64,000 nucleotides of DNA. Origin: Elusimicrobiota bacterium. GTDB taxonomy: Bacteria; Elusimicrobiota; Elusimicrobia; UBA1565; UBA9628. This document shows positions 6,641-18,312 of this stretch, one piece after another; within the stretch, counting starts at the first letter, position 1; the number at the start of each line of letters is the position of its first letter. A model generated the notes under the pieces. The model saw only the letters and a list, made by a program, of their open reading frames with translations, was not told the origin of the DNA and did no database searches. Location of the stretch: positions 1 to 64,000 of the forward strand of contig JAHFCE010000013.1 in assembly GCA_023249675.1 (NCBI GenBank), written 5' to 3'. The translations under genes were made by a program, and so were the position numbers.

Positions 6641-7318
6641 TTATTTGGCGAGCGCCTTCATGACGGCAAAGAGAAGGTCGAAGTCCGTGTCATCGAGACG
6701 AAGCCGGTACAGCATCTGGCGGATGCGGCGCTGTCTGACTTCCGTCAGTCGCGGCGCGGCCGCGAGCCGCGGCTGAAGATAATCCCAAAGGGCCAGCATG
6801 CGATCCAGCGAAGCCGCCGGAGGCGTTTGCGGGCGTTCCACGCCGATAGGCGCCGTCAAAGAAAATAAAGCCACGGCAACCGCCTGCCCTAGGTTGAGAC
6901 TGATGCCGTCTTCGCAGGGAATGCGGGCGAGATGCGGACACAGCACCGACTCCGCGCGTGAAAGGCCGGTCGACTCGCGCCCGAAGACGAGGGCCGCGCG
7001 CCCATTTAAGTTCGGGGACGCGCAAAGAGCCGGCAAGGTGAACGAATCCTGGCGCAGGGCCGTGGGACGGCGGCTGAACGCGATCGCCGTGTCGCACCCG
7101 CGCAGCGCCGCGGCGAGCCCCGCCTCAAAACGCGCTCCATCGAGAATGTCCAGAGCGCAAACGCCGGTGACGCGGACTTCGGCAGGCAACGTCCTCCAAG
7201 ACGACGACACCACGACCAGGTCCGTGACGCCGAACGCCCGCATCGCGCGGGCGACAAAGCCCACGTTTAGGGGATTTTCCGGATCGACCAGTACGACGCG
7301 TAAGTCCTGCGATCTCAG
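6641..7318 (-). CDS. TrmJ/TrmH-like SPOUT RNA methyltransferase, apparent CTG start
   Basis: A SPOUT-superfamily 2'-O-methyltransferase acting on tRNA or rRNA. The trefoil-knot SAM-binding motifs are clear: LVFGRESTGLSRAE and SLNLGQAVAVALFSL. The C-terminal extension (about 70 residues) fits the TrmJ subgroup. The conserved N-terminus (LRVVLVDPENPLNVGFVARA) lies upstream of the first GTG at 7264, so that GTG cannot be the start. Between that motif and the in-frame stop at 7354-7352 there is no ATG, GTG or TTG; CTG at 7318 is the best candidate. It overlaps the upstream stop as CTGA, the same geometry as the common ATGA coupling. The gene follows the Spy-like gene in the same unit. Confidence 0.8.
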   Translation of the reverse strand: MRSQDLRVVLVDPENPLNVGFVARAMRAFGVTDLVVVSSSWRTLPAEVRVTGVCALDILDGARFEAGLAAALRGCDTAIAFSRRPTALRQDSFTLPALCASPNLNGRAALVFGRESTGLSRAESVLCPHLARIPCEDGISLNLGQAVAVALFSLTAPIGVERPQTPPAASLDRMLALWDYLQPRLAAAPRLTEVRQRRIRQMLYRLRLDDTDFDLLFAVMKALAK

Positions 7319-7881
7319 TCGTCGCCGCCGTGCTCGGGCCCGTCGTGATGCTCAACGTCCGGACGCTCGTCGCCGCCTTCCTCTACGTGCTTGCCGCCGC
7401 GCATGCCCCCGCCCGTCCTCCCGCGGCCGCGCATGTCGCCTCCGTGCTCCTTCATCGCGACGGCCATCTTCGCGCGCTGGGTCGGGGTCAGGATCGAGCT
7501 GAGCGAAGCTTCAAACGCCTCCTCCGCGGCGCGCATCGTCTTACGGGCGGCCGCGATCTTGTCGAGCGTCGCCGCAAGATCCGCCTCGGAGGCCTTGTCC
7601 TCGAGCTGGTCCTGCAGCGTGCGCGTCGCCGCTGCGAGCTCCGCGAACGCCGCGGCGGACGCGTCGCGCTTCACCCGGCGCGCCGCCTTCAACTTGTCTT
7701 CCTGCTCCTCGGAAATCCCAAGCTTCTCGCGCATACGCGAGGCGAACGCTTCCTTGCCGCCTTTCTCGCCGCGCGCCTGCTCCCCGCCTTCGGGCGCGCC
7801 CTCAGCCCGCAACGTCGCCGGAAGCGAAAACGCCCCCGCGAATAGGCCCGCCGCCATCGCCGCCGAAATGATCCGCTTCAT
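7315..7881 (-). CDS. Spy/CpxP-like periplasmic LTXXQ protein with metal-binding-like tail
   Basis: A 188-residue exported protein: signal peptide of about 26 residues, then a helical region with the LTPTQRAKM motif of the LTXXQ (Spy/CpxP/CnrX-related) family, and a low-complexity C-terminus rich in Gly, His, Asp and Glu (HVEEGGDERPDVEHHDGPEH). Spy-type proteins are periplasmic chaperones or metal-stress sensors; the acidic histidine tail suggests divalent-metal binding, which is inference. I chose ATG 7881 rather than GTG 7887 because GGAGG lies 8 nt before it. The stop overlaps the CTG start of the methyltransferase gene. Confidence 0.75.
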   Translation of the reverse strand: MKRIISAAMAAGLFAGAFSLPATLRAEGAPEGGEQARGEKGGKEAFASRMREKLGISEEQEDKLKAARRVKRDASAAAFAELAAATRTLQDQLEDKASEADLAATLDKIAAARKTMRAAEEAFEASLSSILTPTQRAKMAVAMKEHGGDMRGRGRTGGGMRGGKHVEEGGDERPDVEHHDGPEHGGDD

Positions 7882-16577: not shown

Positions 16578-17962
16578 GCGAGGACCTCGGGCGCCAGCCT
16601 CGCGGTGAAATGCGCCAGGCGCGACGGCGCCGACAGCAGGCGCAGCGGGCGGATCATTTTGGCGCGCGCAGCGACGTCGGCGACGACCTCGATCAGGAAG
16701 TCCATGTGGCTTTGCGTGTACACGCGGCGCGGGATCGCCAGGCGCACGAGCTCCATGCGCGCGGGCAGGAAGGCCCCGTTCTCGCGGCGGCCGAACATCA
16801 GCGAGCCGATCTCGACGGAGCGCACGCCCGCGGTCAGGTACAGCTCGCAGGCCAGCGCCTGGGCCGGGTAACCGGAGGGCGGAATGTGCGGCAGGAGCCT
16901 CGTCGCGTCGAGGTAAACGGCGTGGCCGCCCGGAGGCTCGACGATCGGAACACCGGCCGCTCTCAGGCCGTCGCCCAGATATTCGATCGAGCGGATGCGG
17001 TACTCGAGGTAGTGCTCATCGAGCGCCTCGCGCAGGCCGACCGCCATGGCCTCGAGGTCGCGCCCGGCCAGGCCGCCGTAGGTCGTGAAGCCCTCGCCGA
17101 GAATCAGGGTTTCTCTCGCCGCCATGGTCCAGCGCTCGTCATTCATCGCCAGGAACCCGCCGATATTGACGAACGCGTCCTTCTTGGCGCTCATCCAGCA
17201 GCCGTCGGCATAGGAGAACATCTCGCGGACGATCTCGCGCACCGGACGCGTCGCATAGCCGATCTCGCGGCGCTTGATGAACCACGCGTTCTCGGCAAAG
17301 CGGGCGATGTCGAGAAAAAGCGGAACGCGGTAATGTTGGGCGATCTCGGAGGCCGCCCGCAGGTTCGCCATCGAGACGGGCTGGCCGCCCAGGGAGTTGT
17401 TCGTGAGCGTCATGACGATCATCGCGACTCGCGCCGCGCCGAGCTCGCGCAGCTTCTCTTCGAGCGCGCGCAGGTCGATGTCCCCCTTGAAGTCCCCGGG
17501 CGAAGCGAAGTCGAGAGCCTCGGGCACGGGCAGGTCGATCGCCTCGGCGCCGGACGCCTCAACGTTGGCACGCGTCGTGTCGAAATGGGAGTTCGAGAGC
17601 ACGACCTTGCCCTTGCCCCCCGCGACGGAGAAAAGCACGCGCTCGGCGGCGCGCCCCTGATGGACGGGCATGACAAAACGCAGACCGGTCAGGTCGCGCA
17701 CCGTCTTTTCAAGCTCATAGAAACTGCGCGCTCCCGCGTACGACTCGTCACCGCGCATGATCGCGGCCCATTGCTCGGCGGACATCGCCGACGTGCCGGA
17801 GTCGGTCAGAAGGTCGATGAGAACTTTATCGGCCGGAATGGAGAAAAGATTGTAGTCCGCGTCGTGCAGAGCCTTCTCGCGCTCGCCGCGCGTCGTAAAC
17901 CCGAGAGGCTCCACGCTCTTGATCTTGAACGGCTCGATGATCGTCTTCCAGACCGGTTCCAT
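16574..17962 (-). CDS. tnaA: Tryptophanase / tyrosine phenol-lyase family beta-eliminating lyase, tryptophanase-like active site
   Basis: A 462-residue PLP enzyme. The family core is complete: ADGCWMSAKKDAFVNIGGFL with the PLP lysine, LDIARFAENAWFIKRREIG and GGLAGRDLEAMAVGLRE. Two positions that separate the substrates favour indole formation from tryptophan: VRSVEIGS has Ile385 where tyrosine phenol-lyase has a substrate-binding Arg, and LAHFTARL has His451 as in tryptophanase rather than Phe. Products would be indole, pyruvate and ammonia. The start ATG 17962 overlaps the DUF971 stop (TAATG); the longer open frame upstream overlaps that gene. Confidence 0.85.
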   Translation of the reverse strand: MEPVWKTIIEPFKIKSVEPLGFTTRGEREKALHDADYNLFSIPADKVLIDLLTDSGTSAMSAEQWAAIMRGDESYAGARSFYELEKTVRDLTGLRFVMPVHQGRAAERVLFSVAGGKGKVVLSNSHFDTTRANVEASGAEAIDLPVPEALDFASPGDFKGDIDLRALEEKLRELGAARVAMIVMTLTNNSLGGQPVSMANLRAASEIAQHYRVPLFLDIARFAENAWFIKRREIGYATRPVREIVREMFSYADGCWMSAKKDAFVNIGGFLAMNDERWTMAARETLILGEGFTTYGGLAGRDLEAMAVGLREALDEHYLEYRIRSIEYLGDGLRAAGVPIVEPPGGHAVYLDATRLLPHIPPSGYPAQALACELYLTAGVRSVEIGSLMFGRRENGAFLPARMELVRLAIPRRVYTQSHMDFLIEVVADVAARAKMIRPLRLLSAPSRLAHFTARLAPEVLA

Positions 17963-18312
17963 TAGTTGGTCTCCGAGCCCGGATGGTGCTCGCAGTCCTT
18001 GCAGTGGCATAATTTGCGGAGCATCTCGAAGGTGTAGATGCCGGTGCCGTGCCCATCGCTGAAAGAAAAGCTCAAGGCGTAGTTGCCCACGACATCCGCG
18101 CGCGTAGCGCCCAGCGTCTCGGGCACCGCGCCGGGGTCGAGCAGGGATTCGCCCGTCCACTCATCCTTGCAGAGGGCGCAGGGACAGTGCCGACGCAGCA
18201 CGGCGAAAGGAAGTTCGGTCTGGTGGCCATCGTCCCAAACGATGCGCAGACGGGCGTCCTCGACCTTCTCGATGGAGCGTGGGGTGAAATTCAGAATGAC
18301 AGGCGTCCTCAG
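17962..18312 (-). CDS. DUF971 protein (gamma-butyrobetaine hydroxylase N-terminal-like), non-canonical start
   Basis: A small protein with the Zn-binding-like Cys/His pattern of DUF971 (RRHCPCALCKDEWTGE and LRKLCHCKDC) and the typical GNYALSFSFSDGHGTGIY. The family N-terminus (LRIVWDDGHQTELPFAVLRR) is in frame upstream of the GTG at 18201, so the protein starts earlier. No ATG, GTG or TTG exists there; candidates are CTG 18312 (about 7 nt after a TATAAT), ATT 18297 (9 nt after GAGG) or CTG 18294. DUF971 domains are linked to FeS-protein assembly or 2-oxoglutarate enzymes. It is the first gene of the lyase-kinase-oxidase unit. Confidence 0.7.
   Translation of the reverse strand: MRTPVILNFTPRSIEKVEDARLRIVWDDGHQTELPFAVLRRHCPCALCKDEWTGESLLDPGAVPETLGATRADVVGNYALSFSFSDGHGTGIYTFEMLRKLCHCKDCEHHPGSETN

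Follow-up and report, generated by a model that had tools for sequence, protein, structure and literature searches.

A TrmJ-like gene with a candidate CTG start overlapping the preceding stop codon in an Elusimicrobiota genome

Non-canonical start codons are in use in Deinococcus deserti. Non-canonical starts controlled by IF3 have been described for infC of E. coli (ATT) and for infC (ATC) and sigR (GTC) of Streptomyces; for Streptomyces sigR, according to the excerpted text of PMC5472188, repression by IF3 has been tested and the gene is translationally coupled to its neighbour. Termination-reinitiation is treated in PMC5972666 and PMC2268962, which include the AUGA/UGAUG type of coupling. 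In the leaderless genes of Deinococcus, as excerpted from PMC12340547, a -10 box adjoins the ORF, with TANNNT about 6-7 bp before it.

Here we describe a TrmJ-like gene on the minus strand of the window, i.e., the whole stretch of 64,000 nucleotides that was analysed. The source genome has a size of 2.6 Mb and a completeness of 98.6%, and among named relatives the closest one found is an Elusimicrobia bacterium assembled from a metagenome. The CTG start proposed for trmJ is of an already known kind. Like the starts of infC and sigR, it lies outside ATG, GTG and TTG in a conserved gene, and sigR is coupled to its neighbour, as trmJ may be; furthermore, the window genome has a sigma factor gene with ATC in place of the ATG of its relatives, and an infC gene without an early canonical start. 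It differs from them, in a comparison drawn from sequence alone, in that the codon is CTG rather than GTC, ATT or ATC, and in that the start would have arisen by loss of an ATG. As in AUGA/UGAUG coupling, the trmJ start overlaps the preceding TGA in the same geometry, whereas it begins with C, a Shine-Dalgarno site was looked for in vain and the coupling is putative. The resemblance to the Deinococcus leaderless genes resides in the trmJ orthologues and in about a sixth of the model-chosen starts in the window genome, which show TANNNT; in contrast, trmJ of the window has lost the box, and the pattern is known here from sequence. The features of the locus are as follows.

6641-7318, minus strand: TrmJ-like SpoU methyltransferase frame, from CTG 7318 to TAA 6643-6641, 225 aa (PF00588, TIGR00050, PDB TrmJ chains, AlphaFold2 model)
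7316-7318, minus strand: CTG, candidate start codon, the sole codon one mismatch off ATG from the in-frame stop to the invariant R7
7315-7317, minus strand: TGA, closing the Spy-like ORF and forming CTGA together with the CTG (sequence reading)
7307-7309, minus strand: CAG, at the codon that is ATG in 7 of 9 congeneric orthologues, the remaining two having ATG 2-3 codons upstream (orthologue alignment)
7308-7314, minus strand: putative deletion junction, at which the relatives' intergenic DNA, -10-like box and start codon are absent, as compared with gaps of 43-73 nt in four relatives
7262-7264, minus strand: GTG, earliest canonical in-frame start, the use of which would cut off the first strand and invariant residues
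7289-7291, minus strand: internal CTG (residue 10), a competing start (sequence reading)
7352-7354, minus strand: TGA, upstream in-frame stop (sequence reading)
7315-7881, minus strand: Spy-like upstream ORF, from ATG 7881 or GTG 7887, with a weak match to the Spy model NF007769 (E 6.7e-4) and, in 5 relatives, tblastn hits upstream of trmJ

The 225-residue protein matches PF00588 (SpoU_methylase) with 80.1 bits against a curated cut-off of 29.7 (E 2.3e-22). TIGR00050, which represents the TrmJ/YjtD subfamily, is the best of the listed models and aligns over the full length, but its 112.2 bits lie below the cut-off of 167.15; thus we name the protein TrmJ-like only. The first-pass annotation had claimed that the conserved N-terminus requires a start upstream of GTG 7264, which is residue 19 of the CTG-started protein, and the comparison bears this out. 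Residues R7, L10, V11 and N18, all of which are encoded upstream of this GTG, are invariant among 22 Elusimicrobiota proteins. The PF00588 alignment begins at residue 6 of the CTG-started protein, and in the PDB, 10 of the 11 matched TrmJ-like sequences have alignments that begin at residues 4-9. In addition, the AlphaFold2 model of the CTG-started protein (mean pLDDT 85.9) has a predicted strand at residues 6-11 and a predicted helix at residues 16-28.

Two further statements of that annotation are exact to the base: no ATG, GTG or TTG occurs from the in-frame stop TGA 7354-7352 to GTG 7264, and CTG 7318 shares two bases with the preceding stop to form CTGA, TGA 7317-7315 being the end of the Spy-like ORF. 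Following TGA 7354-7352, the minus strand reads GCA TCA CGA CGG GCC CGA GCA CGG CGG CGA CGA CTG(7318) AGA TCG CAG GAC TTA CGC. The invariant Arg codon of the TrmJ-like frame is at 7300, and between the stop and this position no near-cognate codon other than CTG 7318 occurs. The conserved residues of trmJ are accordingly preceded by no canonical start back to the previous in-frame stop, and CTG 7318 is the best available start codon for the conserved N-terminus. No Shine-Dalgarno 4-mer was found before CTG 7318 at a spacing of 3-13, and we found no sign of a start buried by RNA structure, the 121-nt start region folding less stably than shuffles (z 1.79). The TrmJ-like peptide stretch DLRVVLVDPENPLNVGFVAR, if present, would imply initiation upstream of 7264. 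The Spy-like protein, as judged by eye, has a signal-peptide-like N-terminus and the appearance of a secreted protein.

The CTGA pattern as such is not improbable; the informative point is that no canonical start lies upstream of the conserved residues. In the -1 register, an upstream TGA makes the overlapping codon NTG by construction, which leaves free only the register, with a chance of about 1 in 3, and the identity of N. Here N is C because the last codon of the Spy-like protein is Asp (GAC followed by TGA). The Spy-like gene of another genome of the genus, G010, also ends GAC TGA. In the window genome, TGA-ended genes outside such overlaps have C before the stop more often than any other base (76/143), but C is scarcer at in-frame NTGA overlaps (17/131), and CTG is thus disfavoured as a start in this genome too. 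The sampled 736 kb of the genome holds 63 ATGA and 41 GTGA in-frame overlaps, and 13 of the 17 CTGA overlaps carry a canonical codon 1-2 codons further on. Three genes, trmJ, HflX and a redoxin gene, combine a CTGA overlap with the lack of a canonical start close by. A fourth CTGA case (L074) and three checked candidates of S. meliloti pSymB were rejected, as a Met 9-19 codons on resembles a real start.

At E 0.001, 14 of the 19 genus genomes match the TrmJ query, and 11 of these 14, the window genome included, carry the close form. Gene 5' ends were compared in nine of the ten other close-form genomes; the gene of G008, cut by a contig end, was left out. All nine congeneric orthologues begin at a free-standing ATG, which in seven is the codon aligned with CAG 7309. 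Each of them has a -10-like TANNNT box within 5-10 nt of the ATG, as in leaderless genes (spacing 7 in eight, spacing 5 in one), and in eight a TG is found one base before the box. Across the window genome, TANNNT occurs at a spacing of 5-10 before 52 of 316 model-chosen starts, as against about 4 expected from internal ATGs; intergenic DNA may be more A+T rich, and the spacing peak is the stronger evidence. A Spy-like gene lies upstream of trmJ in five relatives; in four of them the gap to the ATG measures 43, 45, 55 and 73 nt, and in G016 it measures 876 nt. The trmJ gene of the window has neither the intergenic gap nor the -10-like box nor the ATG.

The CTG of the window is not kept as the trmJ start in relatives, all nine orthologues using ATG at another place, and none of the nine has an ATGA overlap at trmJ. 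The first-pass annotation had regarded CTGA as a stand-in for ATGA coupling and had proposed to align orthologues for an ancestral ATGA. The alignment contradicts this idea: the separate ATG of all nine orthologues and the intergenic gaps (43-73 nt in four cases) rule out ATGA as the ancestral state. The CTGA overlap is probably derived, by deletion. Most simply, we infer one deletion that ended within the ATG; it would account for the TGAGATCGCA/GGACTT junction and would have abutted trmJ onto the Spy-like gene.

We surveyed 736 kb of the window genome (G000), window included, for conserved genes without a start, and in several of them no canonical start lies ahead of the conserved residues. 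In HflX (L053:4972-6249, plus strand), the candidate is a CTG within a CTGA overlap; position 1 of TIGR03156 corresponds to residue 51 of the open frame, in which the first ATG is codon 120. Among the 17 genus genomes with this gene, CTG is the sole reachable start in G000, G007 and G004, whose next canonical codon comes only 45-80 codons later; it is probable in G010 and G012 and ambiguous in G002 (GTG 9 codons on), and the remaining 11 have ATG, TTG or GTG nearby. PyrB, in the 16 genomes listed, has CTG in G000 and G013, TTG at the same codon in three and GTG in two, and the other nine have GTG 1-2 codons on. A permease gene has CTG in G000 and G015. The start codon is thus kept in relatives for HflX, PyrB and the permease, unlike for trmJ. 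For the redoxin gene, which has CTGA in G000, ATG occupies the same codon in four of ten others and the start is 3-4 codons upstream in six.

Codons other than CTG recur as well. A sigma-70 family gene (L053:10446-11477, plus strand) has ATC in G000, ATA in G007 and ATG in 13 of 15; this gene is >90% identical over most of the genus. In infC of G000, no canonical codon precedes the conserved part, and ATC stands at codon 6; at this place ATC or ATT is found in most of the 16 genomes listed; the exceptions include G018, which has TTG, and G009 and G017, each with a GTG close by. The window itself holds a second likely non-canonical start:

17962-18297, minus strand: DUF971-like gene (the name DUF971 being our assumption), with ATT 18297; ATG in 16 of 16 relatives listed

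Farther upstream of this gene, a TATAAT box is common to several relatives. A few other genes of the same organism thus appear to use rare start codons, and these other non-canonical starts, supported by orthologues, make a functional CTG start of trmJ credible.

Our preferred reading, which we hold with somewhat better than even confidence, is that trmJ, deprived of its ancestral ATG and box, now starts at CTG 7318 coupled to the Spy-like gene. The comparison shows the loss of ATG and box, the need for the upstream residues, the uniqueness of CTG 7318, purifying selection over the branch and the existence of other orthologue-supported CTG, ATC and ATT starts in this genome. In the proposed course of events, a deletion would have removed the ATG and the intergenic DNA that carried the -10-like box, placing trmJ right behind the Spy-like gene, and trmJ mRNA would now come from the promoter of the latter. 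Ribosomes ending the Spy-like protein at TGA 7317-7315 would step one base back and re-initiate at CTG 7318 with fMet-tRNA. The enzyme, 225 residues long and with a complete SpoU/TrmJ fold, would be made at a low level. CUG makes up 0.024% of bacterial starts and yields 0.86% of AUG in E. coli, according to the excerpted text of PMC11497404. CTG initiation at trmJ is likely weak, since C is avoided at NTGA overlaps, most CTGA cases have a canonical codon nearby and CUG is poor in E. coli. Weak translation may be enough for a tRNA-modifying enzyme, and the upstream gene would bring ribosomes to the site.

At 127 columns invariant in six relatives, a count that leaves out the start column, the window trmJ has 10 amino-acid changes versus 15 unique synonymous codons. 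This excess of synonymous changes, for which P=0.001 when the neutral nonsynonymous fraction is set at 0.713, points to purifying selection over most of the branch. The gene thus seems to have been constrained for most of that time, and a recent loss of function is possible. Were promoter and ATG lost only recently, trmJ might not be usefully translated and its open frame would be a remnant, which we consider unlikely. Such decay would fit the finding that the window trmJ is the most changed of the seven sequences (11/128 columns, start column counted) and has the highest amino-acid to synonymous ratio of unique changes (0.73 versus 0.25-0.62), the loss of any -10-like box or Shine-Dalgarno site, and a possibly dispensable trmJ, given that 5 of the 19 genus genomes, several of them incomplete, have no match to the query; yet 225 codons persist without a stop, the synonymous bias is pronounced, and the 18 codons that precede GTG 7264 differ from those of G015 mostly by synonymous changes.

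An assembly or sequencing error, with the real genome retaining the ATG and the intergenic stretch, is very unlikely in our estimate: it would have to delete tens of bases and a start codon while both adjoining frames stay open, and other non-canonical starts of this genome are also present in relatives that were assembled separately (HflX in G007 and G004, PyrB in G013, permease in G015). On the other hand, the assembly is of the metagenome type, a single genome represents the species, and a search for the junction 26-mer in viral contigs was negative. Initiation elsewhere, which we regard as quite unlikely, would yield either an enzyme shortened to GTG 7264 or CTG 7291, or a fusion with the Spy-like protein by -1 frameshift. 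No canonical codon comes before GTG 7264, which the codon model picked among canonical starts and which has GGAA 12 nt upstream, and AGGA lies 13 nt upstream of CTG 7291; but the former start loses strand 6-11 together with R7, L10, V11 and N18, the latter loses R7, and the fusion would tie a cytoplasmic enzyme to an apparently secreted protein.

Beyond the CTG start preferred for trmJ, initiation fidelity might be relaxed genus-wide, such that CTG, ATC, ATA and ATT are ordinary starts of housekeeping genes, perhaps via an initiator tRNA without the three G-C pairs in the anticodon stem; we give this extension little credence. Loss of these three pairs weakens discrimination against CUG in an E. 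coli tRNA, according to the excerpted text of PMC11497404. A crude, homology-free count based on codon signal revealed no excess of start-less genes, with 11/581 in the window genome, some of them antisense-like false calls, versus 9/374 in S. meliloti pSymB. G010 (39/369 start-less) is not usable as a control, being a single contig that is frameshift-ridden as from uncorrected indels, with the matches to PyrB and to the AlkA-like gene split too. Absence of an IF3 gene as the cause is ruled out by PF00707, found in 17 of 19 genus genomes, window genome included. The standard initiator-tRNA anticodon arm, GGGCTCATAACCC, gave 16 hits with at most one mismatch in 11 of the 19 genus genomes. In this search, run without a positive control, ARAGORN called no tRNA in the 10 hit loci given to it, and the initiator tRNA was not found in the genus DNA searched; we take this as a hint of an altered anticodon stem. 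On Elusimicrobia start codons, the excerpted text of PMC10783764 contains neither CTG nor CUG.

Read as a CTG start, trmJ would be a comparative case of a gene outliving the loss of its start codon, since a TGA overlap in the -1 register always provides an NTG. Fixed lists of start codons would truncate conserved proteins (HflX, PyrB, sigma factor, TrmJ) in a little-studied phylum. If the wider pattern were true, the genus would be a natural system in which to study initiation fidelity. Two further genes, named by eye, have coding sequence ahead of the first canonical start: a class II aldolase-like gene of G016 (L275:15373-16050, minus strand) and an ABC ATPase-like gene of G007 (L246:8438-9316, minus strand).
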